From NCBI GenBank assembly GCA_028713995.1, contig JAQTNF010000034.1:8660-41162 (forward strand): DNA of 32,503 nucleotides. The letters run 5' to 3'. Every line of letters begins with the position of its first letter. Position 1 is the stretch's first letter. The notes beneath the pieces were generated by a model, which saw only the letters and a list, made by a program, of their open reading frames with translations, was not told the origin of the DNA and ran no database searches. This stretch comes from Deltaproteobacteria bacterium. GTDB lineage: Bacteria; Myxococcota_A; Polyangia; JAAYKL01. This document shows, piece after piece, positions 2,924-27,117 of the stretch. The translations under genes and the position numbers were made by a program.

Positions 2924-3979
2924 TCAGGACGCCCTGGCCACGAGCGGCACGTCCCGGGTCATGCCCTTGTAGTCGCTCATGTTCGCAAGGGGTCGTCCGC
3001 CGTACATCAGCGACTCGAGGCAGCCGCGACAGCTCGTCCAGCAGCCCCGGCAGGTGTTGGCGTCGTACTTGGCGCGCAGCGCGGCCATCAGCTCGAAGAC
3101 GTCGCCGGTCAGGATGTTCCCGATCGGATCGTCCATGCGATCGATGCACAGCGAGACGTCGCCGGCGCTGTCGATGTTGCACATGTTCTTCCCCGCGTGG
3201 CAGGGACCCACGCCGCCCTCGGCCACGGCGCTCGAGAAGCGGCCGATGTAGCTGCGCAGGGACACGAACTCCGGGTAGCGGCGCTTGAGGTCGATCAGGC
3301 GCTCGCTGACCGCGGGGGAGATGCTGCGGGTGGCCTTGGTGCCGCGGGCGTCGGAGTACAGCGTCACGACGTAGGTGATGCCGATGTCGCGGCACAGCCG
3401 GATGAGCGGCTCCATCTCGTCGAGGTTGTCGTCCATGACCACCGAGATCATGTGCACGCGCTGGTATGGCGCGACCCTGCTGCGCTGCAGCGTCAGGAGC
3501 GCCGCCATGGCCCGCTCGTGGGCTCCGGTCAAGCCGCGCTGCTTGTCGTGGCGGTCGGGGTCGGCGTAGTCGACCGAGACGCTGATCTCGTACATCCCGG
3601 CCTCGAACAGGGCGCGCGCGTTCTTAGGGGTCACGAAGAACCCGTTGCAGATCATCACCGGGAAGTGGAACCGGTTCAGGCTCCTCACGATCGGCACGAT
3701 GTCCGGATGGAGCAGCGGCTCGCCCCCGCCCACCGAGACGATCTGCGGCCCGACGAGCGCCAGCTTCTCGGAGATGACGTCGATCTGGGCCAGGCTCAGG
3801 CTCGGCTTCGTCCTGTGGCTCTCGCCCCAGAAGTCGCAGATCTCGCAGCGCATGTTGCAGTCGAACAGCAACTGGAGGTTGGTGTGCACCATGCGCCGTC
3901 TGAGGAACGACGCCGCGAAGCGCAGCTTCTTGCCCGTCTGCCCGTAGGCGCGCGACCCGCCACCCGTATTGTGTTCCAT
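2924..3979 (-). CDS. Radical SAM protein with SPASM-like C-terminal Fe-S region
   Basis: A 351-residue enzyme expected to cleave S-adenosylmethionine with a [4Fe-4S] cluster. Seen: CNMRCEIC (Cys41, 45, 48; CX3CX2C) and GGGEP (84-88). The Cys-rich C-terminal part (GPCHAGKNMC, SLCID, then CRGCWTSCRGC) resembles SPASM/twitch auxiliary-cluster domains. Start: ATG 3979 is used; GTG 4015 would add 12 residues, and neither has a good ribosome site. It is divergent from the CDP-alcohol phosphatidyltransferase gene and convergent with the SDR. It is not of the Tes type found further along. The substrate is unknown; location among lipid genes suggests a lipid or head-group modification, which is inference. 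Confidence 0.85.
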   Translation of the reverse strand: MEHNTGGGSRAYGQTGKKLRFAASFLRRRMVHTNLQLLFDCNMRCEICDFWGESHRTKPSLSLAQIDVISEKLALVGPQIVSVGGGEPLLHPDIVPIVRSLNRFHFPVMICNGFFVTPKNARALFEAGMYEISVSVDYADPDRHDKQRGLTGAHERAMAALLTLQRSRVAPYQRVHMISVVMDDNLDEMEPLIRLCRDIGITYVVTLYSDARGTKATRSISPAVSERLIDLKRRYPEFVSLRSYIGRFSSAVAEGGVGPCHAGKNMCNIDSAGDVSLCIDRMDDPIGNILTGDVFELMAALRAKYDANTCRGCWTSCRGCLESLMYGGRPLANMSDYKGMTRDVPLVARAS

Positions 3980-4101
3980 GACCGGATATTCCCATTCCCG
4001 GGCGACTTTCGCCACAGCTTTTGACGCCGTCGCGGACGCGCCGGGCGGCGTGGACGCGTGCTATGCTCGGCGTGGGCAAGACCCTCGAGGAGGAGTTGGA
4101 A

Positions 4102-5394
4102 ATGGGTGTGGCGCTGGTGCTCGCCGCGGATGCAACCGCCGCGCTTCGTTCGCTCGCGGGGCGTACGCTGATCGAGCGCGCGGTGCTCACCGCCAGGGAC
4201 AGCGGGGCGCGCGAGGTGTTCGTCCTCGCCGCGGACGAGGATTGCGCGGCCAGGTTGCGGGACAAGGCCGCCTCTGCCGTCGTCGTGCCGATGAACGACC
4301 TCGGGGTCCTGCGAGGCGCGCTCGGAACCTGCCGCGACGCGCCGCTCCTGTGGTTGAGCGCGACGCGGGTCTACGACGTCGGACTCGCGGCGTTTCCCGA
4401 GTGGTCCAAGGGCGTGCCTGAGGGCGGTGAGATGCACGTCGCGATGTTCGGCGGCCCGGTTGCGGAGCCGGGGCTCTGGCTGAGCCGCTGCGATCTCGCA
4501 GGTCGGATGGACGACGGGGCGCTCGCGGCGGCCCTGGCAGCGGCGTCCCCGGAACCGCTCGCATCCGGCATCGCCCTCGATATCATTCGTCACGCTGCGA
4601 CCGCGGGGCACGCGATCGACGTTCACGATTCGACAACCGCAGGGCGTGCGATGCGGGCGCTGCTCAGGGGATGTCGCAAGCCGGGGGACGGCCTGGTGGC
4701 GAGGCATTTCAATCGATACGTGAGCCTGTTCATCACCGGCCGGATCGCCGCGATCCTTCCTCGCATCGCTCCCAACCATGTCACCGCGTTCTCCGTGCTC
4801 GTGGGCTTTGCGGCGTCCTGGGTCCTGGCCTTGAAGGGCACCGCCGGTCTGGCGCTCGGCGCATCGATCCTCGTCGTGCAGGAGATCCTCGACGGGATCG
4901 ACGGGGAGCTCGCCCGGCTCACGTGGCGAAGCAGCCGCCTGGGGGAGCTGCTCGACACGGGGGGCGACGTGCTCGTCCTGCTCGCCTTTGCCGGCACCCT
5001 GTGCGTGACCGTGCACCAGGACGGCGCCCACGTGACGGCGCTCGCGGGCTTCGTGGGGCTGGCCGCCTGGTCCGGCTTCGTGGGGCTCCTGTTCGGGGAG
5101 CTCAGGGCCATCGGGCGCGGCGACATCCTGATCGCCACCGCAAGGCTCCAGGAGCGCGGGCCGCTGCCCGAGGGGCGCGGGCTTCGGGCGCTGCACGCGA
5201 GATGGGTGCGTACGGTCGTGCGTTTCAACGGCGTCTGGATGCGCCACGACGTCGTGGTCCCGCTGATCCTCGTCGCCGGATTGTGCGACGCCGCGCCGCT
5301 CGTGGTCTGGTTCATCTTCGGCAGCGGGCTGCTCAACCTGGGTTACGGCGTCTACAGGCTCGGCGCGCCCCTCAGCCGGAGCGCGCTCGACTGA
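4102..5394 (+). CDS. CDP-alcohol phosphatidyltransferase with N-terminal nucleotidyltransferase-like domain
   Basis: A 430-residue two-domain protein. The C-terminal half is an integral membrane CDP-alcohol phosphotransferase with every residue of the family signature: Asp264, Asp267-Gly268, Ala271-Arg272, Gly281, Asp285, Asp289 (DGIDGELAR...GELLDTGGD). Such enzymes displace CMP from a CDP-alcohol to form a phosphodiester head group. Residues 1-180 look like a sugar-phosphate nucleotidyltransferase (GVALVLAADATAALRSLAGRTLIERA), but the usual GxGxRL loop is missing. The plan resembles the fused inositol-phosphate cytidylyltransferase/phosphotransferase proteins of archaea and some bacteria. 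ATG 4102 follows GAGGAGGAG at 4087-4095; ATG 4063 is an alternative. Likely role: lipid head-group synthesis. Confidence 0.85.
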   Translation: MGVALVLAADATAALRSLAGRTLIERAVLTARDSGAREVFVLAADEDCAARLRDKAASAVVVPMNDLGVLRGALGTCRDAPLLWLSATRVYDVGLAAFPEWSKGVPEGGEMHVAMFGGPVAEPGLWLSRCDLAGRMDDGALAAALAAASPEPLASGIALDIIRHAATAGHAIDVHDSTTAGRAMRALLRGCRKPGDGLVARHFNRYVSLFITGRIAAILPRIAPNHVTAFSVLVGFAASWVLALKGTAGLALGASILVVQEILDGIDGELARLTWRSSRLGELLDTGGDVLVLLAFAGTLCVTVHQDGAHVTALAGFVGLAAWSGFVGLLFGELRAIGRGDILIATARLQERGPLPEGRGLRALHARWVRTVVRFNGVWMRHDVVVPLILVAGLCDAAPLVVWFIFGSGLLNLGYGVYRLGAPLSRSALD

Positions 5395-5410: not shown

Positions 5411-8400
5411 TCAGGTCCGCGATCCGAGGATCTCCCAGGCGAAGTTGTCGAGCTGCTCCGGATCCAGGGGATCCCCGTTGTAGACGAGGCTGAGCGACGG
5501 CATGGCGAGCCGCTCCGCGATCCGGGAGAGCTGCGTCTCGGCGACGCGCGCGGCCATGCACTCCAGGGGCCCGACGACGACCGCCCCGGCGATGCGTCCT
5601 TGCTCCTTGCCATGGACGATCGCGCCCAGCGACAGGACCGCCTCGGTGGCGACCTGCCGTCTCAGGTACGGCCCGGCCCACGCGAGCAGGTCCTTCGTAC
5701 GCGGACGGCGCTCCCATCCGAGCGGCCCGCGGACGGCTTCGTGCAGCCGGTCCACGACCTTGCTCGTGACCGCCGCGTTGATGCGGGACGACAGGGGGCT
5801 CACGGCGCGTGGTTGCCGCCCCTCCCGGATCTTCGTCATCGTCTGCCAGTCCATGTACTCCGTGAACTCGTACACGGGCGCGAGCGAGACCCTGAGCCCT
5901 CGCGCTTCGAGGCGCGCGACCAGGTTGTCGTTGGAGAAGGCGTCCATGCGGACGAAGATCTCCCCGGTCAGCAACACGGTGGGCGGGTCGCGATTCCCAT
6001 CGATCATGCCCGCGAAGCCCGCGGCGGCCTTTGCGAGCAGGGAGCGGAAGCCGAAGACGTCGCCGTTCACGGTGGCCAGGCTCGCGGCCAGCCCGGGCAC
6101 GTCCCTGCGCCCCACCTGCTCGGCCAGCGTGTCGACGGAACGCCTCCACAACGCGGCCGCCTCTCCGGCGCGTCGCTCCACCGGGCGCGTGTGGTGGAGC
6201 ATGGCCGTGAGCAGCTCGCAGGCCACCATCCCGGCCCAGGCGCGCATCCTGCGCTCCGGCTCGAGGCCCTTGTAGAAGTCGTGCAGCGGCTGCGAGACGA
6301 CGCTCACGCGGTCCGAGAGCCCGAGGCGGTCGAGGACCACCTTGTCGAGCAGGCTGTACATGCCGAAGCGGCACGGACCGCTCGAGGCGGGCATGAAGAG
6401 CGCGTACCTGCGCCCCGGCTCGCCGCGCCGGATGCGCTCGAGCGCGGAGCCCAGCGTGACGGAGAAGGGCAGGCACTCCTTGCCCGTGGAGTGCTCGCGG
6501 CCCGTGGCCAGCGCCTCGCCGTCCGGAATTCCGAGGCACTCGGCCTCGAGCCCCGCGCCGCGAAAGGCCGCGACCACGATCTCGGTGGCCGGGCCCATGC
6601 GCGGCACGAGGAGCAGCTCGCCTCGCTCGCGGGCGTGCGTCGCGTGGGACACGCGCCCCATGACGCTTCGCAGATCGGGCACGGGAGCGGGTTGCCGGCC
6701 CAAGGAGCGATCCGCGGCCACGCAGTCGAGGAACACGGCGAGGCGCGTCTTCGCGCCCGCGTCGCCCGAATGGCCGTCGGACTCCAGGACGACCGCGGGG
6801 CGCCCCTCCATGGCCCGCGCGTAGAGGTGCTGGATGAAGGAGTCGGGCCCGCACGAGTAGTTCGAGCAGTAGACGGCGTGCAGCCCCGGCGTGCGGCGCA
6901 CGTGCTCGATCGCGCGCAGGTTGCGCTGGCACGAGGCCCAGTACACGCCCGGATGGGGCGGAACGTCGTCCGGCACGGGCAGGCAGTCGACGCCGACGGC
7001 GACCGTTCCGAGCTCGCGCAGGAGCTCGAAGACGTTCGAGTTGAGGACCGGGCTGTAGATGTTGTAGCTGCGGCCGAGCACGACCACGGCGCCGGCGCCT
7101 TGCCTGTCGGCGAACTCGAGAGCGCGCGCCCCGATCGCGAGACGGCCCGAGTCGAACTCGCGCTGGGCCGCGCAGGCCTCCTCGTGCGCGGCGCGCCAGC
7201 GGCGACCCCCGATCCCGAGCTCGCGCGCGAGGCGGAGCGAGGACGCGGCGAAGATGCGGGATTCCAGGTCGCCCACACCCATGTCGATGACCGGCTCGAG
7301 GAGGTGCGTGCGGCCCGCGAACGGGTGGAAGCGCAGGATCTCGCCGCTGCTCTGGGCGAGGAGGCAGGTCGTCGAGAACGGCTCGTCGGCGGCCCGGGGC
7401 AGGTCGCGGAGCAAGGGCAGGAGCAGGTGGTCGGGTCGCCGGTCGAGAAGCTCCGCGATTGCGCCGGCGTAAAGCTGGAGCGGCGCGCACACGGGAGAGG
7501 GCAGGTCCTCGACGCCGCGCTCGAGCGCGGCGCGGCCGCAGTCCGGGAGCGTCAGGAGATCGAACCCCAGGCCGTGAACGAGGGTCGCGAAGTACGGGAA
7601 CAGATCCTTGAGCAGGAGCTCGTCGGTCATCGCGACGGTCGGCCGGCCGCGCGGCGGACCGAGCCTCGAGACGAGGTCGTGGACGAGCCGCCGGCGCTCC
7701 CGGCAAGGGTCCGGTGCGAGATCGGGCAGCTTCCTCGCGCCGTCGCCGGGGTGGTGCAGGCTGCAGGCCCCGCCCCACAAGGCGGTGCGCGCCTCGCCGT
7801 CCACGTTCATGGTGAGGCGCTCGATGCGGCACTCGCGGCCCGGCGCCCCGCAGCCACGGCTCGACGTGCACCGGAACGCGTCCTTCGACTCGAGATGCGC
7901 GTGCACAAAGCGTTGCACGGGAAGACCCTCGGGCGTGCGGTCGAGGCGCAGGGAGCGGATGGCCAGCAGGGCGGCGCCCAGGGCGCCCACGGTTCCCGGG
8001 CTGGGTGGGACGACGATGGAGCCGCCGTTTCGGCGGGCCATGGCCGCGGCCAGGGCGTCGGAGGAGAACGGCATGCCCTGGCACAGCACCCGACGGCCGG
8101 ATGGCCGCTCTCCCTTGACGCGCACCAGGTAGTTGCGGACCACGGAATCGAAGAGACCCGCCAGGATCGCGTCCTGATCGACTCCCGCGGCCACCGCTTC
8201 GTCCACGACCTCGGCCATGAACACGGAACAGTGCTGTCCCAGGAAGATCCCGCTTTCGGCGTCGAGGGCCAGGCTGCCCATGCGTCGCACGTCCTCCACC
8301 CCCGCGAAGAGCCGGCCCTGCTCCTCGAGGAACGAGCCGGTGCCGGCGCTGCACGCCTCGTTGAGCGCCGCGTCCACCACCCGTCCGTCCTCGATGCGGA

Positions 8401-9670
8401 TGTACTTGGCGTCCTGCCCGCCGATTTCGAAGACGGTGTCCACCTCGGCATCGTAGTGTCGCGCGCCCTCGGCGTGGGCCGCGATCTCGTTGCGCACGAG
8501 GACGTGATCTCGCCCGAAGCAGCCGGAGAGCAGCGCGGCCACCACCTCGCGACCCGAGCCCGTGACCGCGAAGCCCACGACCGGATGGCCGCCCCGGGCG
8601 TCGGCCGCGAAGCGCTCGAGCAACGCGTGTGCGGCGCCCACGGGGTCGCCTCGCGTTTCCACGTAGGTCTCGAAGACCGGCTCGAGCGCATCCGTGTCCA
8701 CGGCCGCGAGCTTCGCGCCCGTCGAGCCGACGTCGACGCCCAGCACCAGCCGGCGCGGGCGGTCGTCGACGGGAACGGGCGTGCGCTCGAGGCGCGTGAC
8801 GCCCGCGAGGGCCTGCGAGAGCGGAGCGAAGGATTCCAGGGCCGTGCTTCGGTTGCGGGCCGCGAGCGACGCGAGCGGGGGAGGGGAGATCGGAGCCCGC
8901 GCGGCGGCCAGGACCGCGCCCCAGGCCTCGTTGAGCATGACCTCGTCGCCCCCGAGCTCCACGAGGCCCATGCCGCGCTCGGCTGCGAAACGCGCGAACC
9001 AGCCCCGGACACGGGCCGACCGGCTCACTCCGCCCCCGAGAACGAGGCGTCCGGGGGCGCCGTGCGACTTGACGAGGGGCTGCACCTGGCGGCAGACCGC
9101 GTCGAACAGGCCGGCCAGGAGCCGATCGCGGGTCGCGCCGGCGTTCGCCATGTGCGCGAGGTCCGTCTTCAGGATCACCGGGCAACGACCGCTCAGCGAA
9201 ACGGGATCGGAAACGCCCGCGCACAGGGCGTCGGCGTCGGCCACAGTGAGCCCGAAGCGACCGGCCATCTGGCTGAGGAAACGACCGGTGCCCTGGCCGC
9301 ACTGGCCATTCTCCCGCCACACGGTTCGTCCGCCAACCCGTCGCTCGAGGACCGTGGCGCCCCGGCTCGAGATCGTGACCAGGGTGAGCGGATCCTCGTC
9401 CGGGATCAGGTGCGCGAGGCCGAGGATCTGGGCCTGCCTGACCGGCACGGCGGGCAGACGCAGCAGGCGACCCAGGCGTCCCGTGACCGCGGCCCCCGCG
9501 ACCCCGGGCCAGTCGAGGTCGGTGAGGAGCCCCGCGACCGCCCCGGCGGGGTCCTTGCGATGGTCGACGATTCCGTGCCGTCCAGCCTCGAGACGGGCGC
9601 CCGCGCCGATCGCCTCGACGAACTTCACGGTCTCGGCGCCCACGTCGATGCCGATGTATCTCCCGGTCAT
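5411..9670 (-). CDS. Fused acyl-CoA dehydratase activase/reductase, PlsA/GeR-like candidate ether-lipid enzyme
   Basis: A 1419-residue cytoplasmic protein. Two complete BcrAD/BadFG-type ASKHA ATPase domains (about 1-265 and 306-575) each keep the cluster cysteines (Cys124 in QCGQGTG and Cys163 in GRCPV; Cys440 in ACSAGTG and Cys481 in HCSVF) and the nucleotide loops (GIDVGAET, GVDVGSTGAK, EIGGQD). A Cys-rich linker (Cys601, 607, 614) and DUF2229/HgdB-like parts follow (about 630-1110, with Cys728, Cys1066 in GKECLPF, Cys1100), then a C-terminal domain. The family couples ATP hydrolysis to low-potential electron transfer. Clostridial PlsA and bacterial GeR, which turn ester into vinyl-ether or ether lipids, share this architecture; so do activases of unknown role. 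The start overlaps the glycosyltransferase stop by 4 nt (ATGA), so the two are co-translated. The ether-lipid role is inferred from architecture and neighbours. Confidence 0.85.
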   Translation of the reverse strand: MTGRYIGIDVGAETVKFVEAIGAGARLEAGRHGIVDHRKDPAGAVAGLLTDLDWPGVAGAAVTGRLGRLLRLPAVPVRQAQILGLAHLIPDEDPLTLVTISSRGATVLERRVGGRTVWRENGQCGQGTGRFLSQMAGRFGLTVADADALCAGVSDPVSLSGRCPVILKTDLAHMANAGATRDRLLAGLFDAVCRQVQPLVKSHGAPGRLVLGGGVSRSARVRGWFARFAAERGMGLVELGGDEVMLNEAWGAVLAAARAPISPPPLASLAARNRSTALESFAPLSQALAGVTRLERTPVPVDDRPRRLVLGVDVGSTGAKLAAVDTDALEPVFETYVETRGDPVGAAHALLERFAADARGGHPVVGFAVTGSGREVVAALLSGCFGRDHVLVRNEIAAHAEGARHYDAEVDTVFEIGGQDAKYIRIEDGRVVDAALNEACSAGTGSFLEEQGRLFAGVEDVRRMGSLALDAESGIFLGQHCSVFMAEVVDEAVAAGVDQDAILAGLFDSVVRNYLVRVKGERPSGRRVLCQGMPFSSDALAAAMARRNGGSIVVPPSPGTVGALGAALLAIRSLRLDRTPEGLPVQRFVHAHLESKDAFRCTSSRGCGAPGRECRIERLTMNVDGEARTALWGGACSLHHPGDGARKLPDLAPDPCRERRRLVHDLVSRLGPPRGRPTVAMTDELLLKDLFPYFATLVHGLGFDLLTLPDCGRAALERGVEDLPSPVCAPLQLYAGAIAELLDRRPDHLLLPLLRDLPRAADEPFSTTCLLAQSSGEILRFHPFAGRTHLLEPVIDMGVGDLESRIFAASSLRLARELGIGGRRWRAAHEEACAAQREFDSGRLAIGARALEFADRQGAGAVVVLGRSYNIYSPVLNSNVFELLRELGTVAVGVDCLPVPDDVPPHPGVYWASCQRNLRAIEHVRRTPGLHAVYCSNYSCGPDSFIQHLYARAMEGRPAVVLESDGHSGDAGAKTRLAVFLDCVAADRSLGRQPAPVPDLRSVMGRVSHATHARERGELLLVPRMGPATEIVVAAFRGAGLEAECLGIPDGEALATGREHSTGKECLPFSVTLGSALERIRRGEPGRRYALFMPASSGPCRFGMYSLLDKVVLDRLGLSDRVSVVSQPLHDFYKGLEPERRMRAWAGMVACELLTAMLHHTRPVERRAGEAAALWRRSVDTLAEQVGRRDVPGLAASLATVNGDVFGFRSLLAKAAAGFAGMIDGNRDPPTVLLTGEIFVRMDAFSNDNLVARLEARGLRVSLAPVYEFTEYMDWQTMTKIREGRQPRAVSPLSSRINAAVTSKVVDRLHEAVRGPLGWERRPRTKDLLAWAGPYLRRQVATEAVLSLGAIVHGKEQGRIAGAVVVGPLECMAARVAETQLSRIAERLAMPSLSLVYNGDPLDPEQLDNFAWEILGSRT

Positions 9671-10922: not shown

Positions 10923-11657
10923 ATGCTCACCGGCAAGGTCGTGCTTCTCACGGGCGGCACCGGCGCCATCGGCCAGGCGATCTGCCGGGCGGCCGCGGTC
11001 CACGGGGCCGACGTGGCCTTCACGTTCGCACACCGCGAGGCTGAGGCGCGGGAGCTGGTCCGCGAGGTGCAGGGCCTCGGCCGACGCTGCACGATGGGAC
11101 GCGTGGAGGCGTGCGATGCCGCGGCCGTCGAGTCGTTCTGCCAGGGCGTCGAGAAGGAGCTGGGTCGGGTCGACGTGCTCGTGAACAACCTCGGCGCCAC
11201 GCAGGTCATGCCCTTCGCGCTCATCGAGGAGGGCGACTGGGATGAGATGGTGGAGGTCAACCTGAAGAGCATGTTCCTGTTCACCAAGGCCGTGGTGCGC
11301 GGCATGATCCGGCGCAAGAGCGGGGTCGTGATCAACATGGGCTCGCTCGCCGGGCAGCGCATGCTCGAGGTGCCGGTGCACTACGCGACCGCCAAGGCGG
11401 GCGTCACGGGCTTCACGGTGTCGCTCGCCCGCGAGCTGTGCCGCTACGGCATCCGCGTGAACTCCGTGGTGCCGGGCCTGATCGAGGGCGGCGTGGGCGC
11501 CAACGTTCCCGAGCGCTTCCTCACCGAGTACAACCGCTACTGCGCGGCCGGGCGCCCGGGTCGTCCCGAGGAGGTGGCCGAGCTCGTGCTCTTTCTGGCC
11601 TCGGACCGCGCGTCCTACATCAACGGGCAGAGCGTGGTCATCGACGGGGGGCTCTGA
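10923..11657 (+). CDS. fabG: FabG-like 3-oxoacyl-[ACP] reductase (SDR)
   Basis: A 244-residue short-chain reductase of classical length. Motifs: TGGTGAIG (10-17; Ala in place of the usual second-to-last Gly of TGxxxGIG), NNLG (88-91, variant of NNAG), Ser141, Tyr154 and Lys158 (YATAK), and a C-terminal NGQSVVIDGGL typical of FabG. ATG 10923 has a strong ribosome site (GGAGGAGGG); frame-open sequence upstream belongs to the divergent promoter. It is the first gene of a three-gene operon with the two Tes-like genes; its stop shares a base with the next start (TGATG). NADPH reduction of a beta-keto acyl group, or of a ketone made during lipid coupling, is likely. The exact substrate is unknown. 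Confidence 0.85.
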   Translation: MLTGKVVLLTGGTGAIGQAICRAAAVHGADVAFTFAHREAEARELVREVQGLGRRCTMGRVEACDAAAVESFCQGVEKELGRVDVLVNNLGATQVMPFALIEEGDWDEMVEVNLKSMFLFTKAVVRGMIRRKSGVVINMGSLAGQRMLEVPVHYATAKAGVTGFTVSLARELCRYGIRVNSVVPGLIEGGVGANVPERFLTEYNRYCAAGRPGRPEEVAELVLFLASDRASYINGQSVVIDGGL

Positions 11658-13078
11658 TGGATGGCGGGCGAGGCGGCCGGGATCGCATCTTCCTCTCCTC
11701 CACCACCGGCATGTGCCGGGCGTGCGGCGCGGTGGTCGATGCGCGCTACGTGTCCGAGCGGGGCCGGGTCTACCTGGAGCACAGCTGCCCCGAGCACGGC
11801 GTCTTCGCGACCCTGGTGGCCGAGAGCCTGCCCTGGTACCTCGACGCACTGAAGTCGCCCGTGGCCGCCCGGCCGCCGCGACAGGTCGTGGAGCGCACGG
11901 GCGAGTGTCCTTCCTCCTGCGGGCCCTGCGAGTTCCACGCGCAGCACTGTTGCCTGCCGGTCATCCCGATCACCAACGCCTGCGACCTCGCCTGCCCCAT
12001 CTGCTTCGGGTACACGCGTCCCGATGACAACTTCCACATGTCCCCCGAGGAATTCGGTCGGCAGCTCGACTTCCTCGTCGGGGCGACGGGCGGGGTGGAC
12101 CTCATCAACGTCACGGGCGGCGAGCCGACCTTGCACCCGCGGCTCACGGATCTCCTGGTCCTGGCGAAACGGCCCGAAATCGGGCGCATCACCGTGAACA
12201 CCAACGGGCTGACCCTGGCCCGGGACGAGGACATGGTCCGGCGCCTGGCCGATCTCGGCGTGTACGTGATCCTCTCCTACGACACGGTGCGGCCGGAGGC
12301 GAGCATCAGGATCCGCGGTCGCGACATCACCGCGGAGAAACGGCGGGCCCTCGAGAACCTGGCGCGGTTCGACGTGCAGACCACGCTGCTCATGGTGCTC
12401 GCGGGCAAGGTGAACGAGCAGGACGTCGGGCCCCTGCTCGACCTCACGATCGAGACGCCCAACGTGCGCAGCCTCACGATCCAGAACATGACCTACACGG
12501 GGCAGCGCGGAAGCTCGTTTTCTCCGCGCGAGCCTCTCCCCGTCGACTCCGTCGAGCGGTTGATCGAGGAGGCGAGCCGCGGCCGGATCCTGCGGTCCGA
12601 CTTCGTGCCCCTGCCCACCGCGCACCCGCTGTGCTACGGGGTCGTGTACCTGATGGTCGGGGCCGAGGGCCGCGTCCGGTCCTTCTCCCGGATCCTCGGG
12701 CGCGAGACCCTGGCGCGGCACCTGGCGGACGGCTACCTGCTCCACCCCACGCAGGCGCTGGAGGCCGACCTGCTGCGCGCCATCGACCGCCTGTGGGCCG
12801 AGGGCGAGGATCCCGTGGCCCTGCGCACGGCCCGGGACGTCATCGGGCGGATCTTCCCTTCGGGTCGGAACCTCAGCGTCTACGAGCGCCAGCGTCGCGG
12901 CGAGCAGGCGGTGAAGACCATCTACGTCCACGCGCACATGGACGAGGATACCTGGGAGGTCGGCCGTGCCATGCGCTGCCCGGACAACGTGCCGGTGAAC
13001 GCCGAGCGGCTGGTCTGCGCGTGCAACTACAACCTGTTCCACCGCAAGGGTGACTCGCGCTTCTGGGGGGCGTCGTGA
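11657..13078 (+). CDS. Tetraether/membrane-spanning lipid synthase-like radical SAM protein, paralogue 1
   Basis: A 473-residue radical SAM enzyme of the Tes type (COG1964-like; archaeal Tes joins lipid tails by sp3-sp3 carbon bonds). Domains: N-terminal rubredoxin-like Cys pairs (Cys20, Cys23, Cys44 in HSCPEHG), a further Cys set (Cys84, 88, 91, 98, 99; CPSSCGPC), the SAM-cluster motif CDLACPIC (Cys109, 113, 116), TGGEP (153-157), and a C-terminal Fe-S region (Cys441, 454, 456) after IYVHAHMD. Compared with paralogue 2, two cysteines of the FCPLPCSHPTC segment are replaced (FVPLPTAHPLC; only Cys326 remains), so one auxiliary cluster may be absent or altered. Start ATG 11657 overlaps the FabG stop, giving tight coupling. 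The coupling chemistry is inferred from family membership. Confidence 0.82.
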   Translation: MDGGRGGRDRIFLSSTTGMCRACGAVVDARYVSERGRVYLEHSCPEHGVFATLVAESLPWYLDALKSPVAARPPRQVVERTGECPSSCGPCEFHAQHCCLPVIPITNACDLACPICFGYTRPDDNFHMSPEEFGRQLDFLVGATGGVDLINVTGGEPTLHPRLTDLLVLAKRPEIGRITVNTNGLTLARDEDMVRRLADLGVYVILSYDTVRPEASIRIRGRDITAEKRRALENLARFDVQTTLLMVLAGKVNEQDVGPLLDLTIETPNVRSLTIQNMTYTGQRGSSFSPREPLPVDSVERLIEEASRGRILRSDFVPLPTAHPLCYGVVYLMVGAEGRVRSFSRILGRETLARHLADGYLLHPTQALEADLLRAIDRLWAEGEDPVALRTARDVIGRIFPSGRNLSVYERQRRGEQAVKTIYVHAHMDEDTWEVGRAMRCPDNVPVNAERLVCACNYNLFHRKGDSRFWGAS

Positions 13079-14490
13079 TGCGCGCGGCTCACCGCGAGCC
13101 CGAGGCCTGCATCCAGGCCACGAAGGCCTTGTGCAACACGTGCGGCAGGCTCACCGCGGCCAAGATCGTGCTGCGGGGCGGCAAGGTCTACCTGGCCAAG
13201 TGGTGCGCCGAGCACGGCCTCACCGAGGCGCTCGTCTCCTCCGACGAGGGCTGGTACCTGCGCTCGCTCGGGTACGTGAAGCCCGGCACCGAGCCCCTGC
13301 GCCGGTCGGTTGCCGAGCACCGCGGCTGTCCGGACTCCTGCGGGCTGTGCCCGCGCCACGAGCAGCACACGTGCGTGCCGATCCTGGAGATTACTGATCG
13401 TTGCGACATGGGCTGCCCGGCGTGCCTCGTGCACGGGCGCGTGCAGGGCGACGTGTCACTCGATCAGGTCCGGTCGATCCTGGACCGGCTCGTGGCGTGC
13501 GAGGGCCGCATCAACATGCTCACCCTGAGCGGCGGCGAGCCCACGTCGCATCCGGAGCTCCTCTCCATCGTGGACGCCGCGCTGCGCCCCGAGATCGGCG
13601 TGGTGTCGGTCTCGACCAACGGTCTCGCCCTCGCGGCCGACGACGATCTCATCAAGGCGCTGCGCGATCGGGGGGTGGTGATCTCGCTGCAGTACGACGG
13701 CGAGAAACCCGGGACGTACGCCGCGCTGCGCGGCAGGCCGGAGCTCGCGGAGATCAAGGCGAGGCTCGTGGAGCGAGTCCTCGCCCTGGGCGGGCGGTTG
13801 TCGTTGACCATGACCCTGGCCCGGGGCGTGAACGAGGACGAGGTGGGCGGCGTCATGCGCCTGCTCCTCGGGAACGACGGGGTCGTGAGCGTCATGGTGC
13901 AGCCCTTGAGCCACGCGGGCCGGGCCATGGCCGGCATCCGCCACGATCCGCTCGACGTCGTCACGGTCCCGGACGCGGTGCGGCTCCTGGCCGCGGCTTC
14001 GGGCGGCGTGATCGAGGAGAAGCACTTCTGCCCGCTGCCGTGCTCGCACCCCACGTGCTTCGCCCTCACGTACCTGCTGCGGCTCGAGGGCGGCCGTATG
14101 ATCCCGGTGCCCGCGCTCGTGGATCCCGAGACCTACCTCGACGTCATCAAGAACCAGGCGCTCGTGGGCACGGATCCGGACTCGCTCATGCGCATCCGCG
14201 ACGGCCTGTACGCCCTGTGGACTTCGAGCGGCGCGATCCCGGAGCGCGACGCGGTGCTCAAGGTCATCCGGCAATTGCTCCTCGACGTGGATCGCGCGTC
14301 CCGCGCGGGCAACCATCGCGAGGTGCTCGGCGTGGGCGCGGCTCACGTCAAGTCGGTGTTCATCCACCACTTCATGGATCGCTACACCTTCGACCTGTCC
14401 CGGGCGGCCAAGTGCTGCAACCACTACCCGCAGGTCGGCGGCCGCCTCGTGCCGGCGTGCGTGCGCAACAACCTCCAGCCCAGGATCTAG
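13078..14490 (+). CDS. Tetraether/membrane-spanning lipid synthase-like radical SAM protein, paralogue 2
   Basis: A 470-residue second Tes-type radical SAM protein, starting at ATG 13078, which shares one base with the preceding stop. Full cysteine complement: Cys19, 22, 43 (CxxC...WCAEHG), Cys84, 88, 91, 99 (CPDSCGLC), the radical SAM motif CDMGCPAC (109, 113, 116), SGGEP (151-155), the triad Cys318, Cys322, Cys327 in FCPLPCSHPTC, and the end Cys446, 447, 461 (KCCNHYP...PACVRNN). The FIHHFMDRYTFDLSRAAKCCNHYP block is highly characteristic of Tes relatives. The set fits one SAM cluster plus several auxiliary metal centres. The two paralogues may act in sequence or as a heteromeric pair to couple acyl or alkyl tails. 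Its 3' end overlaps the convergent hydrolase gene by 4 nt. Confidence 0.87.
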   Translation: MRAAHREPEACIQATKALCNTCGRLTAAKIVLRGGKVYLAKWCAEHGLTEALVSSDEGWYLRSLGYVKPGTEPLRRSVAEHRGCPDSCGLCPRHEQHTCVPILEITDRCDMGCPACLVHGRVQGDVSLDQVRSILDRLVACEGRINMLTLSGGEPTSHPELLSIVDAALRPEIGVVSVSTNGLALAADDDLIKALRDRGVVISLQYDGEKPGTYAALRGRPELAEIKARLVERVLALGGRLSLTMTLARGVNEDEVGGVMRLLLGNDGVVSVMVQPLSHAGRAMAGIRHDPLDVVTVPDAVRLLAAASGGVIEEKHFCPLPCSHPTCFALTYLLRLEGGRMIPVPALVDPETYLDVIKNQALVGTDPDSLMRIRDGLYALWTSSGAIPERDAVLKVIRQLLLDVDRASRAGNHREVLGVGAAHVKSVFIHHFMDRYTFDLSRAAKCCNHYPQVGGRLVPACVRNNLQPRI

Positions 14491-15479
14491 TCCCCGGTCA
14501 CGAGAGGATAGATGGCCCTTGCGACACCGAGCGCATCGCCCAGGGACGGCAGCCTGGACGGCGAGACGTGGGACAGGAGCGAGGTGACGTGCAGGCGGTG
14601 GTCTCGCGCGTTCGGGAGCGACAGGAGCTCGGCGTGGATGCGCTCCGAGTGAGACACCGGCACGAGGTTGTCGCCGCGATCGTGCACGAGCCCGACCCGG
14701 CACCGGAGCCCGCCGAGCTTGCCGGCCGGAGAGATCGCCTCGAGGGTGCGACGGTTGAGGAACCGGCGGTCGACCTCGTCCACGTCGAGGTCGCGCAGAA
14801 AGCGATCGTGGAACGCCCTCTTCTCCTCGAGGGACGCCTCGCAGCAGTATCTGCGCAGGATGTCCTCGAGCGACGAGCACGCCTCGGGATCGAGGCCGAG
14901 GCGTTCCCTGCGGCGGTACGCCATGGCCATCCTGACGTAGATTGCGTCGTCGAGGTCGCGGCCGTCTCCGAGCGGCCGGGTTCTCTTCTCGTAGCGCGAG
15001 TCGCACAGGTCCGGAAACGACCATGCCGCGCCGATGGCCAGCACGAAGCGCACGCGCGGCGCGGTCGCGGGGCGGGACGCGGCCACGAGGGAGTAGCTTC
15101 CGCCCCAGCTGAACGCGGCGATGCCCACCTGTCCGAACCGCGCGTGGAGCTCCTCGATGACCGACTCCAGGGTCGTGACGTCACCCTCGTCGAAATCGAA
15201 CCGCGCGAGCCCCGGGAGCGTGGGAGCCGCGCAGATCATGCCCGAGCCCGCCAGGCACCGCGCGAGGTGCGCGAGCCTCGTGTCCTTCCGCCCGGTCATG
15301 ACGGCTCCGTGCACCGCGATGACCGCGGCCAGCGGCTGCCCGTGCGGCTCGTACAGATCGTAGACCGCGCCGGCGCCCGTTTTTCGGTCCGGGCTCTCGA
15401 TTGCGATCGGCGCCGGGGCCGGGTATCGGGAGGCGCGCACGAGCAGGGACGCGAGGCGCGCGATGTCGAGGACGCCCAT
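14487..15479 (-). CDS. Alpha/beta hydrolase
   Basis: A 330-residue hydrolase-fold protein. The nucleophile elbow is AFSWGGS with Ser124 (first Gly of GxSxG is Ala122). VIAVHGAVMTGRKD supplies the oxyanion strand-loop, and the candidate acid and base are Asp270 (HDRGDNLVP) and His297 or His304. ATG 15479 has a good ribosome site (GGAAGG) and lies 5 nt after the upstream stop, so this is the last gene of the minus-strand permease operon. No signal peptide or transmembrane helix is seen, so it is probably cytoplasmic. An esterase, lipase or thioesterase acting on the operon's lipid substrate is plausible but unproven. Confidence 0.8.
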   Translation of the reverse strand: MGVLDIARLASLLVRASRYPAPAPIAIESPDRKTGAGAVYDLYEPHGQPLAAVIAVHGAVMTGRKDTRLAHLARCLAGSGMICAAPTLPGLARFDFDEGDVTTLESVIEELHARFGQVGIAAFSWGGSYSLVAASRPATAPRVRFVLAIGAAWSFPDLCDSRYEKRTRPLGDGRDLDDAIYVRMAMAYRRRERLGLDPEACSSLEDILRRYCCEASLEEKRAFHDRFLRDLDVDEVDRRFLNRRTLEAISPAGKLGGLRCRVGLVHDRGDNLVPVSHSERIHAELLSLPNARDHRLHVTSLLSHVSPSRLPSLGDALGVARAIYPLVTGD

Positions 15480-15484
15480 GCCGG

Positions 15485-16348
15485 TCAGCCTTCCGCGGGT
15501 TTCGGCCGGATGAGCCCGAGCGGCCGGCGGAAGACCCACAGGAGCGCTCCCACGCCGGCCACGGCCAGAAGCTCCGTGGTCTCCTCCCACACGCCGGACC
15601 AGCCCGGGTTGGGCAGGAAGGTGCGGTAGAGGAAGAACCGGAACAGGGAGTAGGTCACGAAGCCGAACCCGGCGAAGAACAGACGCTTGGCCCACGCGAG
15701 CCCGCGCCTGCCCTGCAAGAGGAAGATCCACGTGGCGAGGAGCGCCGCCGCGCCGACGAGCGGATAGATGCGGAACTCGAGGAGCTGGCGCCACGCGTTC
15801 CCGTGGTGGCTGAGCCGGGTGCCATAGACGCAGTAAACGAGGCTCGACTGATCGAAGGGCAGCGTCAGCGGGATGAGCCCCAGGACGGCCAGGGCAGGGC
15901 CCACGAAGAAGAACAGCCGGTGCGGGGCGCAGGTGACGTCCTCGCGCTTCCAGCAGCGTTTGCACAGTCGGTTCACCGCGCAGGCGGCGTCCTCGTCGCT
16001 GAAGTGCAGCACCCGATCGTCGAGAAGCGTGAACAGGCCGAAGGGCAGGAGCGCGCTCATGGCCACCATGCCCGCCCCGTGCAGGAAGTCGAGGGGCTCG
16101 CTGAGCCACGAGGCCGTGTAGTAGTCGATCGCGCAGAAGGCCTCGCCGAGGAACAGGAAGAGGAGCCCGTTCCTGATGAGCGAGAGATCCCTGGCGCGCT
16201 GCCGCCGCAGCGCGATGACGAGAAGGAACGAGAGCGCCATCTGAATCGGCTTGAAACAGAAGGCGCTCGTCACGATCAGGACCTGCTCCGGGAAGCCGAT
16301 GTCGAGCGCCGGCAAGGCCGGGACTGCTGCCGCGATCTGTGCTGGCAC
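15485..16348 (-). CDS. Polytopic membrane protein with a four-cysteine loop
   Basis: A 287-residue hydrophobic protein with about six to seven membrane segments (for example around residues 22-47, 58-80, 90-109, 144-164, 195-211, 222-242, 258-273). Between two of them is a hydrophilic loop carrying Cys123, Cys129, Cys132 and Cys140 (C-X5-C-X2-C-X7-C), which could bind zinc or an Fe-S cluster. I do not recognise the family. GTG 16348 follows AGGAG at proper spacing. It sits 13 nt after the ABC ATPase gene and 5 nt before the hydrolase gene, so it is part of the same operon. A membrane redox or lipid-handling role is possible, but no function is assigned. Confidence 0.75.
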   Translation of the reverse strand: MPAQIAAAVPALPALDIGFPEQVLIVTSAFCFKPIQMALSFLLVIALRRQRARDLSLIRNGLLFLFLGEAFCAIDYYTASWLSEPLDFLHGAGMVAMSALLPFGLFTLLDDRVLHFSDEDAACAVNRLCKRCWKREDVTCAPHRLFFFVGPALAVLGLIPLTLPFDQSSLVYCVYGTRLSHHGNAWRQLLEFRIYPLVGAAALLATWIFLLQGRRGLAWAKRLFFAGFGFVTYSLFRFFLYRTFLPNPGWSGVWEETTELLAVAGVGALLWVFRRPLGLIRPKPAEG

Positions 16349-18354: not shown

Positions 18355-18990
18355 GTGACGGACACCCTCGATACCCTGTTCGGCATCCTCCGGGGACGCC
18401 GCAGCATCCGCAGGTTCGACGCGAGACCCGTGGATCCGGCTCTTCTCGATCGCGTGCTCGACGCCGCGCAATGGGCGCCGAGCGCGGGCAACCGGCAGGC
18501 GTACCGCTTCATCGTCGTGACCTCGGCCGGGGCGATCTCGGCCATGGGCGAGGCCGTGGAGCACGCGCGGGCGCGCATCTCCGAGGGGCTGCGTGAGGAT
18601 TTGTCCGGCGAGATCTCCGCGTACATGGGCAACTTCACTCACTTCTCCCTGGCGCCGGTGGTCGTGGTCCCGATCTACAGGCCCGGAGTGGACCTCCTGG
18701 AAGCGGCCGCGGAAGGTGAGGGCAGGGCGCGGGCGAAGCGCCCTTCGGACGTGGACGCCCTGTCGTCCGTATGCGCCGCGATCATGTGCCTGCTGCTGGC
18801 GGCCGATGCGGCAGGGCTGGGCGCGTGCTGGATGACCGGCCCGCTTGTTGCAAACGACGCATTGCGCGAGGCGGCACAGGTCCCGGATGGGTGGGAGATC
18901 GCGGCGGTCATCCCGGTCGGCCATCCGGCCGAGACCCCGGACGCTCCGTTGCGGCGTCCCTTGAGCCGGCTGGTTCGCCGGATCACGTGA
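18355..18990 (+). CDS. Nitroreductase-family flavoprotein
   Basis: A 211-residue protein of the nitroreductase fold, expected to bind FMN and act as a homodimer with NAD(P)H. The N-terminal signature RRSIRRFDARPVDPALLDRVLDAAQWAPSAGNRQAYRFIVV carries the phosphate-binding Arg-Ser and Asn residues, and the mid-C-terminal GLGACWMTGPL is the other FMN-contact block. GTG 18355 lacks a ribosome site and lies just after the palindrome, so the message may be nearly leaderless. It leads the fab/ketosynthase operon. Members of the family also reduce or oxidise C=C or thiazoline-like bonds, so a redox step on an acyl intermediate, for example in place of an enoyl reductase, is conceivable. That is inference. 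Confidence 0.85.
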   Translation: MTDTLDTLFGILRGRRSIRRFDARPVDPALLDRVLDAAQWAPSAGNRQAYRFIVVTSAGAISAMGEAVEHARARISEGLREDLSGEISAYMGNFTHFSLAPVVVVPIYRPGVDLLEAAAEGEGRARAKRPSDVDALSSVCAAIMCLLLAADAAGLGACWMTGPLVANDALREAAQVPDGWEIAAVIPVGHPAETPDAPLRRPLSRLVRRIT

Positions 18991-19027: not shown

Positions 19028-19492
19028 ATGAGATACTTCTTCGTCGACCGCATCGAGGAGCTCAGGAAGGGCGGGTACGCCATCGGGACAAAGTGCGTGT
19101 CCCTGTCGGACGATTGTTTCGAGCACCATTACCCCACCCAGCCCGTGTACCCGGGCTCCATGATCATCGAGTCCATGGCCCAGCTCGGCGGCGCCCTGCT
19201 CGAGCTCACCCTGCGCGACACGCTCGATCGTTGCCCGCGCTGCGTGATGAGCTCGGTCAAGGCCAAGTTCCGCAGGTTCGCGCGGCCGGGCGACCGGCTC
19301 TCCATGCGCGCCGAGATCCGCTCCCTGCACGAGGACTCCGCGCTCGTGTCCGTGGCCGTGACGAGCGACGACAACCGCATGTGCGACGCCGAGATCATCT
19401 ACGTCATGGTTGAGGTCGACGACCCGGTGCTCGAGAAATCCATCGAGCAGTACCTCGCGGTGCTCACGCGGGACACGAGGATCGTGGAATGA
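19028..19492 (+). CDS. fabZ: FabZ-like 3-hydroxyacyl-[ACP] dehydratase
   Basis: A 154-residue single hot-dog domain, the usual FabZ size. The active-site block HHYPTQPVYPGSMIIESMAQLGG holds the catalytic His (33/34) and Glu48. It removes water from a beta-hydroxyacyl-ACP to give trans-2-enoyl-ACP. ATG 19028 has a weak GAGG upstream. Its stop overlaps the next start (ATGA at 19489-19492). It begins a chain of 4-nt overlapping genes with both ketosynthase subunits, the reductase and the ACP, so it likely serves one dedicated acyl chain rather than housekeeping fatty-acid synthesis. Confidence 0.88.
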   Translation: MRYFFVDRIEELRKGGYAIGTKCVSLSDDCFEHHYPTQPVYPGSMIIESMAQLGGALLELTLRDTLDRCPRCVMSSVKAKFRRFARPGDRLSMRAEIRSLHEDSALVSVAVTSDDNRMCDAEIIYVMVEVDDPVLEKSIEQYLAVLTRDTRIVE

Positions 19493-20625
19493 GCCGGGCT
19501 GTTCGCGAGGTGGTCCTCACCGGCGTGGGGCTGCACTCGACCCTGGGCGATGTGGACGACGCGTGGGAAGCCCTCGCGGCCGGCAGGAGCGCGCTCGCCA
19601 TGACCGTGCCGTCCGGCGTGCGCGACTTTCCCGAGGTGCCGGGCGCTCCCGCGGCCAACGCCTCGCCCGCGCAGCTCATCGAGAACCGCAAGCTCGTCAA
19701 GTACATGAGCCCCACGACCGCCATGGCCACGGTGGCCGCGGGCCGGGCCCTGGCTCACGCGGGCCTTGTCGCGGATGAGCGCCGTTCCGGGCTCGGGCTG
19801 TTCGTGGCCGTGGGCTACGCGGCGTTCGATCTCGCGGACGTGCGCGGGGCCATCGAGACCGCACGCGGCGCGGACGGCGGACTCGACCTCGAGCGCATGG
19901 GGCGCGAAGGGCTGCGCGCCTGCCACCCGCTCATGCCGTTCAAGTCGCTGCTCAACATGCCGCTGGGCATCATCTCCATCGCGTACGGCATCCGCGGACC
20001 CAACTTCGTGCTCTATCCCGGAGCGCGCGAGGGCGCGTCGTGCCTGGAAGCCGCGGTGCGCGCCGTGCGCCACGGACGGTGCGACGGCGCGTTGGTGGGC
20101 GGTTCGTCCAACGGGTTCAGCCTGCTGCCGATCTCCATGCTGCTGCGCCTGGGGCGCCTCGCGCGCAGCGTGGAAGAGGCCGTGCCTTACCGGGCCGGGC
20201 ACCGGGGCATCGCTCCGGCCGACGCGGCGTGCTTCCTGGTGATCGAGGCGCGGGAGCACGCGGAGCGGCGCGAGGCCCGCATCCTCGCGTGTCTCGGTGA
20301 CACGGGCGCCCTCGAAAGGGCTCCGGACCTGCTGCTCTCGGTGGGGACCGTGGACGAGGCCGCGGACCGGGCCGAGCTCGAGGCGGCGAGAACCTCATGG
20401 GGCGAGCCTGTGCCGACGGTCGCATCCCTGGACGGGCGGCTCGGCCACCACGGCGCTGCCGCCCTGTTCACGGCCGCGGCTTGCGTATCCAAGCTCTTCG
20501 ACAGGAACGCGGCGCGGCTTCCGGGATGGAGCGACGGTTTCCCGTCGTCCGTGCTGGTCCGCGCGGGCGAGCCCGACGGCGGTCACGGCTCCCTCACGCT
20601 CTTCTCCCCCGGAGGCGCGCCGTGA
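19489..20625 (+). CDS. Ketosynthase-like chain-length-factor subunit (KS-beta), active-site Cys lost
   Basis: A 378-residue protein with a FabF/KS-type thiolase fold (VVLTGVGLHSTLGDVDDAWEAL at the start; GIRGPNF before the nucleophile turn; LDGRLGHHGAAALF near the end). At the nucleophile position the usual TACxSG is YPGAREG, so Cys is Ala179. The HGTGT histidine motif is not recognisable, and the KSxxGH lysine is changed to Asp (LDGRLGH). It is therefore not a condensing enzyme by itself. Such proteins (CLF, KS-beta) pair with an active KS and set chain length in type II polyketide and aryl-polyene systems. The adjacent gene encodes the active partner, with a GTGA overlap. It is shorter than its partner. 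Confidence 0.8.
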   Translation: MSRAVREVVLTGVGLHSTLGDVDDAWEALAAGRSALAMTVPSGVRDFPEVPGAPAANASPAQLIENRKLVKYMSPTTAMATVAAGRALAHAGLVADERRSGLGLFVAVGYAAFDLADVRGAIETARGADGGLDLERMGREGLRACHPLMPFKSLLNMPLGIISIAYGIRGPNFVLYPGAREGASCLEAAVRAVRHGRCDGALVGGSSNGFSLLPISMLLRLGRLARSVEEAVPYRAGHRGIAPADAACFLVIEAREHAERREARILACLGDTGALERAPDLLLSVGTVDEAADRAELEAARTSWGEPVPTVASLDGRLGHHGAAALFTAAACVSKLFDRNAARLPGWSDGFPSSVLVRAGEPDGGHGSLTLFSPGGAP

Positions 20626-21923
20626 ACCGCGTGGCCGTCACCGGCATCGGGGTCGTGTCGCCCATCGGCAGCGGCGTCGAGGCATTCTTCGACGGGCTGA
20701 CGCGGGGAGCCTCGGGCATCGACGTCATCGGGTCGTTCGACGCGAGCTCCTTTCCCACGCGCATCGCGGGCGAGGTGCGCGACGTCGATCTCGCGTCCGT
20801 GGAGCTCCCATGGCCCGAGGCCGAGGCCGTACGCCGGGACCGCAAGTCCGCGTTCGGCGTCGTGGCCGCGCGCGAGGCCGTGAGGACCGCGTTCGGTTCG
20901 AGAGGCCCGACCGGCTGGTACGGGCCGCACCGGGTAGCGGTGATCGCGGCCGCGGGCCTGGAGGTGTTCGACCTCGCGGATCTCGTGCCGCACCTGAGCC
21001 AGGGCGTGGTGAACGGCGCCTCGCTCCTCGAGTCGCTGTTCTCCGGGCCGGCGCTCGCCAGGTGCCAGATCCCGTCCGATCTGGGCGCGCGCTGCATCGC
21101 CCGGGAGGGGGGGGCGGCCGGGCTCTACGCGGTGAACGTGTCGGCGTGTGCCGCCGGGACGCAGGCCCTGGGCGAGGCGTTCCTCGCGATCCGGGAAGGC
21201 GCGGCCGACTGCGCCGTGGCCGGCGGGTACGACTCGATGGTGAACCCGCTCGGGGTGGGTGGCTTCTGCATGCTGGAAGCCCTGTCCACGGCCAACGAGC
21301 TTCGCGGCGCGGCCTCGCGGCCGTTCGACCGCAGGCGCGACGGCTTCGTGCTGGGCGAGGGCGCCGCGTTCTGCGTGCTCGAGAATCTCGACATGGCGCG
21401 GGCCCGCGGCGCGTCGATCCGGGCCGAGATCCTGGGCTACGGCTCCACCCTCGACGCCTTCCGCGTCACGGACCCGGCCGAGAGCCACGAGGGAGCCATG
21501 GCGGCCATGCGCGGCGCGCTCGAGGTCGCGGGGCTCGAGGCGAGGGACATCGACTACGTGAACGCCCACGGCACGGGCACGCGCAAGAACGATCCGGCCG
21601 AGGTCGCGGCCATCCGTTGCGTGTTCGGCGCCGAGGCGGATCGCGTGCCGGTCAGCTCGACCAAGAGCCAGATCGGGCACCTCATCGGCGCGGCCGGGGC
21701 CGTGGAATTTCTGGCCGGGCTGTTCGCGCTCGAGCGCGATCTGCTGCCCGCCACGATCAACCTTGAAGAGCCCGATCCGGAGTGCGACCTCGTCCACGTG
21801 GCGCGTACGCCCCGGCCCGCGAAGGTGCGCGCGTTCATGTCCAACTCGTTCGGCTTCGGAGGGCAGAACGCCGTGATCGTGGCCGGCAGGCCCAGGGACG
21901 AAGGAGAGGAGGTGCCGCAATGA
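20622..21923 (+). CDS. Beta-ketoacyl-[ACP] synthase, FabF/KS-alpha type
   Basis: A 433-residue condensing enzyme with complete catalytic residues: nucleophile Cys176 (VNVSACAAGTQ), His316 (NAHGTGT), Lys348 and His353 (STKSQIGHLIGAAG), and the end block SNSFGFGGQNA. It elongates acyl-ACP with malonyl-ACP. GTG 20622 has the ribosome site GGAGGC and overlaps the KS-beta stop (GTGA); its own stop overlaps FabG (ATGA). Active and inactive KS genes side by side strongly suggest an obligate heterodimer. Context (DH, KR, ACP, no enoyl reductase) fits iterative synthesis of an unsaturated, hydroxylated or otherwise special acyl chain. Confidence 0.9.
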   Translation: MNRVAVTGIGVVSPIGSGVEAFFDGLTRGASGIDVIGSFDASSFPTRIAGEVRDVDLASVELPWPEAEAVRRDRKSAFGVVAAREAVRTAFGSRGPTGWYGPHRVAVIAAAGLEVFDLADLVPHLSQGVVNGASLLESLFSGPALARCQIPSDLGARCIAREGGAAGLYAVNVSACAAGTQALGEAFLAIREGAADCAVAGGYDSMVNPLGVGGFCMLEALSTANELRGAASRPFDRRRDGFVLGEGAAFCVLENLDMARARGASIRAEILGYGSTLDAFRVTDPAESHEGAMAAMRGALEVAGLEARDIDYVNAHGTGTRKNDPAEVAAIRCVFGAEADRVPVSSTKSQIGHLIGAAGAVEFLAGLFALERDLLPATINLEEPDPECDLVHVARTPRPAKVRAFMSNSFGFGGQNAVIVAGRPRDEGEEVPQ

Positions 21924-26543: not shown

Positions 26544-27117
26544 ATGTGCAGCATCCGTCCGGCTTGCGGTCCGTGCGCGGCTCGCAGGACACGACGCGCC
26601 CACGGGCGTCGAGCGCGATGTGGCAGCAGTCCTCGAGTGCCTTGCGGAGGTGTTGCCGGCCTCGCTGGACGCGGGACTTCATACCGGACAGGGAGATGCC
26701 GAGCATGTCGGCCGCGTGTTTCTGCGTGAGGCCTTCGAGCTCCGCGAGCGTCAGCGCCTCGCGGTACGGCGAAGGAAGCATCGTGACGAACGGGGCGATG
26801 CAGCTTGCAAGCTCGCGCTCGGCGGCGCGGTCGTCTTCGTCAACCTCGGGTGCCTTTTCCTCCGCGACATCGCCGTCCGTGACACGATGCTTCGCGGAGA
26901 CGCGCCGGTGGTCAACGATGGCGCTCCGCGCGATCTGATAGACCCATGGGCCGAAGCGCTCCTCGTCGCGAAGCCCGGGGAGGCCCCGCTGCATCCGCAG
27001 GAAGACGTCCTGAACGACGTCGTCCACGTCGACATCAGCGCGCACGCGGCGCGCGATGAAGGGACGCAGCTTGGCTTCCAAGTCCCGCCACGCACCGCGC
27101 GCCGCAGGGTTGATCAT
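26542..27117 (-). CDS. ECF sigma factor, SigZ-like, with Cys-rich tail
   Basis: A 191-residue extracytoplasmic-function sigma factor. Region 2 is at about 10-75 ([32 protein letters not shown]). Region 4 is at about 105-160 ([48 protein letters not shown]). The C-terminal extension carries Cys164, Cys165, Cys178, Cys189 and Cys190, which could bind a metal or metalloid. ATG 27117 overlaps the ArsM stop (ATGA), so the two are co-translated; an upstream extension of the frame lies inside arsM. No anti-sigma gene is next to it. Likely role: control of an arsenic or metal response, by context. Confidence 0.85.

Follow-up and report, generated by a model that had tools for sequence, protein, structure and literature searches.

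Tetraether synthase (Tes, also GDGT-MAS; MJ0619, structures 7TOL and 7TOM) has been described as the first enzyme found to couple two unactivated sp3 carbons, with the role of its extra metal centres left open (PMC9433317). As described there, archaeal Tes carries a rubredoxin-like site (CX2CX20CX2H), a cluster termed [Fe4S4]N held by three Cys and one His, the radical S-adenosylmethionine (SAM) cluster on CX3CX2C, and a cluster termed [Fe4S4]C, whose Met439 ligand is labile. The same text states that Met439 and Tyr459 are completely conserved across 1000 archaeal Tes homologues and that variants of Tes at both positions remain active (PMC9433317). Bacterial homologues of Tes are known and have been tied hypothetically to branched glycerol dialkyl glycerol tetraethers (brGDGTs; PMC8941075). 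Here we analysed a 32,503-nucleotide stretch of DNA from a Deltaproteobacteria bacterium (the window; contig JAQTNF010000034.1) that contains two overlapping Tes-like genes, which we call TesA (P1) and TesB (P2). Our preferred reading, to which we give about an even chance, is that TesA and TesB are co-inherited paralogous subunits of a Tes-like enzyme that forms C-C bonds within a cluster of the type II fatty acid synthesis (FASII) kind.

TesA (473 aa) is encoded at 11657-13078 on the plus strand from an ATG start. TesB (471 aa) follows on the same strand, from a GTG at 13075 or an ATG at 13078 to 14490, and the two reading frames overlap by 4 bp at GTGATG. The first-pass annotation, made from the letters of the window, had placed tandem Tes-like paralogues at 11657-14490, and both open reading frames were confirmed at that place. 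A search of the same genome with P2 recovered P1 at E 2.7e-73 and 33% identity, which shows that they are genuine paralogues. The best solved homologue of both is 7TOL, the Mj Tes structure (E 6.7e-36 for P1 and 4.6e-53 for P2). AlphaFold2 models of P1 (pLDDT 91, pTM 0.92) and P2 (pLDDT 89, pTM 0.91) matched Tes over their full length, about 490 columns against 7TOL and 7TOM, with TM-scores of 0.83 for P1 against 7TOL and 0.80-0.82 for P2 against 7TOL and 7TOM. Judged from these sequences and predicted structures, P1 and P2 are full-length homologues of archaeal Tes that share its fold at a TM-score of about 0.8. The four metal-site motifs and a radical SAM core with auxiliary clusters are common to Tes, TesA and TesB. 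Unlike archaeal Tes, TesA and TesB are bacterial and form a paralogue pair in FASII-type clusters. Both proteins score below the 450-bit cut-off of the Tes model NF045702 (174 bits for P1 and 231 for P2). The best NCBIfam match is TrsS (NF045646), again below the cut-off, which is 490 bits (217.6 bits for P1 and 240 for P2). TrsS and other single-copy bacterial Tes-like proteins have the same domain order and share with TesB a Cys in a PLPC-type motif. By contrast, the TrsS-like proteins of three loci (L030-L032) have Met at the Met439 position, form a separate branch and lie beside methyltransferase genes rather than beta-ketoacyl synthase (KS) genes. The methyltransferase genes next to L030, L031 and L032 resemble a gene at 27114-27947 of the window.

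Ligand conservation was scored on an alignment of 49 homologues (23 TesA rows and 16 TesB rows), in which L061 is the one truncated TesA row. Tes positions are given as Mj numbers, to which 20 is added for the 7TOL chain index. The ligands of [Fe4S4]C were taken as Cys338, Cys455 and Cys470, an assignment that we infer from alignment position. Mapped against the Tes structure in this way, P1 has every ligand Cys and His of the four centres: C20-C23-C44-H47 at the rubredoxin-like site, C84-C88-C91-H94 for [Fe4S4]N, C109-C113-C116 for the radical SAM cluster and C326-C441-C456 for the C-terminal cluster, with His425 at the Met439 position. P2 has the same set plus the PLPC Cys and an equivalent of Tyr459, also with His at the Met439 position. 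Across the alignment, CX3CX2C is invariant in all 49 rows, the [Fe4S4]N motif CPxxCGxCxxH is found in every row, and GGEP and the radical SAM motif are intact in both the TesA and the TesB clades. The rubredoxin-like C-C-C-H is present in both window proteins and in 23/23 TesA; some other TesB have a Cys aligned at its last His. The Cys338 equivalent occurs in all 23 TesA rows and the Cys455 and Cys470 equivalents in the 22 that are not truncated. TesB also keeps these three Cys, and the four metal-site motifs are conserved in it as in TesA.

These results bear directly on the cysteines that drew attention to the pair. The first-pass annotation had set FVPLPTAHPLC in P1 against FCPLPCSHPTC in P2; both strings are correct and mutually aligned, and P1 does keep the radical SAM motif, as that annotation said. 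It had gone on to propose that P1 lost two of three cysteines, and with them that one auxiliary metal centre was lost or changed. The count of cysteines calls for correction, and the loss or change of a centre in P1 was rejected when its ligands were mapped to 7TOL. Cys327 of P2 (HPxC) corresponds to Cys338 of Tes, and both paralogues have it. Cys318, counted from the ATG, is a singleton found in no other TesB and in no TesA aligned, and it was rejected as a ligand because it is restricted to this one protein. At the position of Cys322, the PLPC Cys, all 16 TesB rows and the TrsS-like proteins have Cys, and 22/23 TesA have another residue; Mj Tes has Ser there, so that this position provides no ligand in the solved enzyme. 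One conserved Cys, not two, therefore separates the clades. Since TesA retains all Tes ligand positions, P1 has, as far as its sequence can be read, lost no metal centre.

The aligned positions of Met439 and Tyr459 do differ from Tes. All 41 rows from these clusters carry His at the first of them, in the context [IVLM]H.[HFY]MD; the TrsS-like rows, like Mj Tes, carry Met. This His is a plausible replacement ligand. The Tyr459 equivalent is present in TesB and lost in TesA, and many TesA also lack the second Cys of a CC pair. As Tes itself remains active when Met439 or Tyr459 is varied, these differences do not imply an inactive enzyme. Together with the two P2 cysteines missing from P1, the changes in TesA are what favours a scheme in which P1, having lost one auxiliary centre, would perform the first C-H activation only and leave the coupling to P2. 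We consider this scheme very improbable, given that TesA conserves all three Cys that ligate the C-terminal cluster in Tes, and the other centres as well, that Cys318 is a singleton and Cys322 a Ser in Tes, and that Tyr459 variants of Tes are active in the text cited above. A separate Myxococcota Tes-like group (L012, L013, L014 and L019) has A/S/N, S/T and E/D in place of the Cys338, Cys455 and Cys470 equivalents, respectively, but still has the PLPC-type Cys and, in the CC pair, the second Cys. By its sequences, this group may really have lost or re-ligated the C-terminal cluster.

In the tree, the 23 TesA rows form one clade (support 100/100) and the 16 TesB rows another (92/87). A P2 search of 24 genomes found TesB in 20/20 genomes that bear TesA, which come from Myxococcota and one Bacillota metagenome-assembled genome (MAG), and the two genes are usually adjacent and in the same orientation. 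TesA and TesB are two ancient, co-inherited clades, and the pair has long been kept together. The genome of the window is placed in Myxococcota by its nearest named relatives, L021 and L022. Strong matches occurred in 19 of the 379 Myxococcota genomes sampled. Outside Myxococcota, the genomes covered held TesA only in the Bacillota MAG (L023); of 398 genomes sampled from the phylum to which G408 belongs, the G408 MAG alone had it. A third, very divergent Tes-like gene lies directly upstream of TesA-TesB in genome G056 (L026:17491-18999, plus strand) and has PLPMPNPMC and a Met at the Met439 position. Genome G371 carries a degraded second TesA copy (L061:7732-9324, plus strand) from which a deletion took the region of the C-terminal cluster together with the start of the neighbouring SDR (short-chain dehydrogenase/reductase) gene; its orthologues are intact in G329, G398 and G400. 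Selenocysteine was considered for two TGA codons and rejected, as the one flagged in G408 (L090) is at the gene end and the one in G371 (L061) follows the deletion into the adjoining SDR gene, so that neither is an internal selenocysteine codon.

In two genomes (G026 and G042) the gene between the SDR gene FabG1 and TesB, directly upstream of TesB, lacks a radical SAM domain. These genes, at L029:10266-11150 and L028:10158-10970, both on the minus strand, encode proteins of 295 and 271 aa. Their assignment as TesA orthologues is based on gene position, on the motifs and on an identity of 24-31% in the parts that both have. They retain the rubredoxin-like Cys/His set and the [Fe4S4]N Cys/His set (with one extra residue). 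They also have the equivalents of Cys338, Cys455 and Cys470, and His where Tes has Met439. The CX3CX2C region is gone, as are the barrel and the helices that follow Cys338, with a stretch rich in A, L and P partly in their place. Pfam matched only the zinc-ribbon-like N-terminus, and Tes aligned only to the two ends of the protein. Between the two short genes dN and dS were 0.113 and 0.522, a ratio of about 0.22 (NG86), as compared with 0.14 for TesB. This ratio indicates that the short reading frame is under purifying selection. The case is the opposite of the scheme first proposed: what has gone is the radical SAM part, and the auxiliary motifs remain. The broader suggestion of a division of labour, possibly as a heterodimer, fared better and is supported in outline, because the clades are separate, jointly inherited and usually adjacent and because a TesA-position protein without a radical SAM domain still neighbours TesB. 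That TesA can do without its radical SAM domain and only carry auxiliary metal centres for TesB, in a heteromer that builds acyl products cross-linked through C-C bonds or cyclised, in a pathway widespread in Myxococcota, is a tentative extension of these findings, on which we would place clearly less weight than on the subunit reading itself.

Several observations weigh against treating the pair as subunits of one enzyme. The form without the radical SAM domain is found in two MAGs of one genus only, which are 79% and 83% complete. In some genomes, such as G371, a distance of about 20 kb separates the two genes. Five loci (L060, L073, L074, L076 and L077) hold a second TesA copy that is remote from TesB and has an SDR of its own, which suggests that TesA may also work alone. 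In addition, similar clusters at L078 and L079 hold a single TesB-like gene without TesA, so that a heteromer is not universal; these two genes branch outside both the TesA and the TesB clades. The TesA-only loci and single TesB-like genes, and the intact radical SAM motif and GGEP in both clades, would also be expected if TesA and TesB were independent enzymes of one pathway that form no complex, each with its own SDR and each functionalising C-H bonds of a separate substrate or position. We regard this as possible, though distinctly less probable than the subunit reading, because TesB accompanies TesA in every TesA genome in overlapping or adjacent genes, and because the TesA-like protein that lacks a radical SAM domain and is kept beside TesB is hard to picture as a SAM enzyme in its own right.

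Under the subunit reading, for which we infer metal binding, the physical heteromer, the substrate and the product, the cluster would make an unusual acyl chain, as acyl-ACP (acyl carrier protein) or lipid. TesB, and in most lineages TesA too, would cleave SAM with the radical SAM cluster and abstract a hydrogen through the 5'-deoxyadenosyl radical. As in Tes, the C-terminal [4Fe-4S] cluster would hold the first radical or intermediate; formation of a new C-C bond would then give coupled chains or rings. TesA would be a derived partner of TesB, probably in a heteromer, that contributes metal centres and in most lineages adds radical chemistry of its own.

The neighbouring genes place TesA and TesB in a dedicated type II fatty-acid/polyketide-like cluster. 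FabG1, an SDR resembling 3-oxoacyl reductases (10923-11657, plus strand; PF13561/PF00106), is directly upstream of TesA, and nearly every related locus has it beside or close to TesA/TesB. Downstream on the plus strand are a nitroreductase-family flavoprotein (18355-18990; PF00881, 1.6e-31) that is kept in related loci, a FabZ-like hydroxyacyl-ACP dehydratase (19028-19492; PF07977, 6e-18; TIGR01750 at 86 bits, below cut-off), a chain-length-factor (CLF)-like KS homologue (19489-20625; PF00109) with YPGA replacing the active-site Cys, a KS with Cys-His-His intact (20622-21923; PF00109/PF02801), the SDR ketoacyl reductase FabG2 (21920-22663; PF13561, 7e-61) and an ACP (22660-23040; PF00550, 9e-9). 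Related loci share FabG1, FabZ, two KS homologues, FabG2, the nitroreductase and ACP, and these partners are conserved across Myxococcota families, with one run in the Bacillota MAG (L023). One KS with Cys-His-His and another without the Cys are found in the window and in most loci, with G371, G259 and G269 arranged differently. This is the pattern of type II KS/CLF systems, where an active KS lies next to a Cys-less homologue. On the minus strand, an alpha/beta hydrolase (14487-15488; PF12697 just below cut-off) could possibly release the acyl product; similar hydrolases occur in related loci, and the one of L023 matches PF12697/PF00326. It is followed by a protein of 287 aa (15485-16348, minus strand) with no Pfam match and 39-42% identity to proteins in L024, L028 and L029. 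Several TesA/TesB clusters, although not that of the window, have a class III aminotransferase (L064:13761-14993, L066:13826-15190 and L071:12545-13843), for which PigE is the nearest named model at L064 and L066; this hints at an aminated product. A third radical SAM protein of the window is SPASM-like (2924-4015, minus strand; PF04055, 3e-19), and its homologues are found near TesA/TesB clusters at 57% identity in L025 and 33-36% in L063, L066, L070 and L075. Elsewhere in the genome of the window there are three more consecutive radical SAM genes (G000:C63:20441-22991).

The content of the cluster resembles the candidate 'ladderane' clusters of anammox bacteria and Desulfotalea, which, as here, combine FASII genes, divergent KS paralogues and radical SAM genes. 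Those of anammox (Kuenenia) comprise divergent FabF paralogues, FabZ, FabG, ACP and radical SAM genes (PMC2649909; PMC4790861), and 'ladderane' clusters of unknown function have been reported in Myxococcota (PMC9902471). On this analogy the TesA/TesB clusters would fall under the loose label of 'ladderane-type' FASII plus radical SAM clusters, and the pair would cyclise polyunsaturated acyl chains. The likeness drawn here is one of gene content. The phytoene-desaturase-like genes that mark the anammox clusters were not recognised in the window, and we consider this explanation improbable.

A Ger/PlsA-like activase-dehydratase protein of 1419 aa with two BcrAD_BadFG stretches is encoded at 5411-9670 on the minus strand. 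With this protein and the homology to Tes, the pair could be read as making membrane-spanning ether lipids of the brGDGT kind, a role that has been proposed for Mss and for Tes homologues of bacteria (PMC8941075; PMC13274423). Bacterial Mss reportedly shares the Tes architecture and is proposed to couple fatty acyl tails through C-C bonds (PMC13274423). Unlike Mss, which we compared by its description only, TesA and TesB do not track Ger and sit in a KS/CLF-like cluster. A full-length Ger homologue was found in only 5/18 TesA/TesB genomes and was absent from several that are 97-100% complete, whereas six genomes of the same family without the pair have one. The neighbour tables of the related loci held no Ger match near the pair in any locus other than the window. 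These counts and tables rule out Ger as a conserved partner, and the conserved neighbours of the pair make or modify ACP-bound chains; we therefore think the brGDGT explanation unlikely. The Ger/PlsA-like gene is typical of the family of the window, independently of TesA/TesB. Convergent with it is a gene at 4021-5394 on the plus strand with a CDP-alcohol phosphatidyltransferase domain and a weak N-terminal nucleotidyltransferase match.

Our literature search, in which subscription literature was thinly covered, found no paper on the pair, on its KS/CLF-like cluster or on the form without a radical SAM domain. These results caution against taking bacterial Tes homologues as a sign of brGDGT synthesis. 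A natural two-subunit version of Tes, with one lineage lacking one of the two radical SAM domains, would let the role of the auxiliary centres be tested by parts. The cluster is a candidate for making new lipids, cross-linked or cyclic, and it recurs across Myxococcota in genomes that include large, nearly complete ones.

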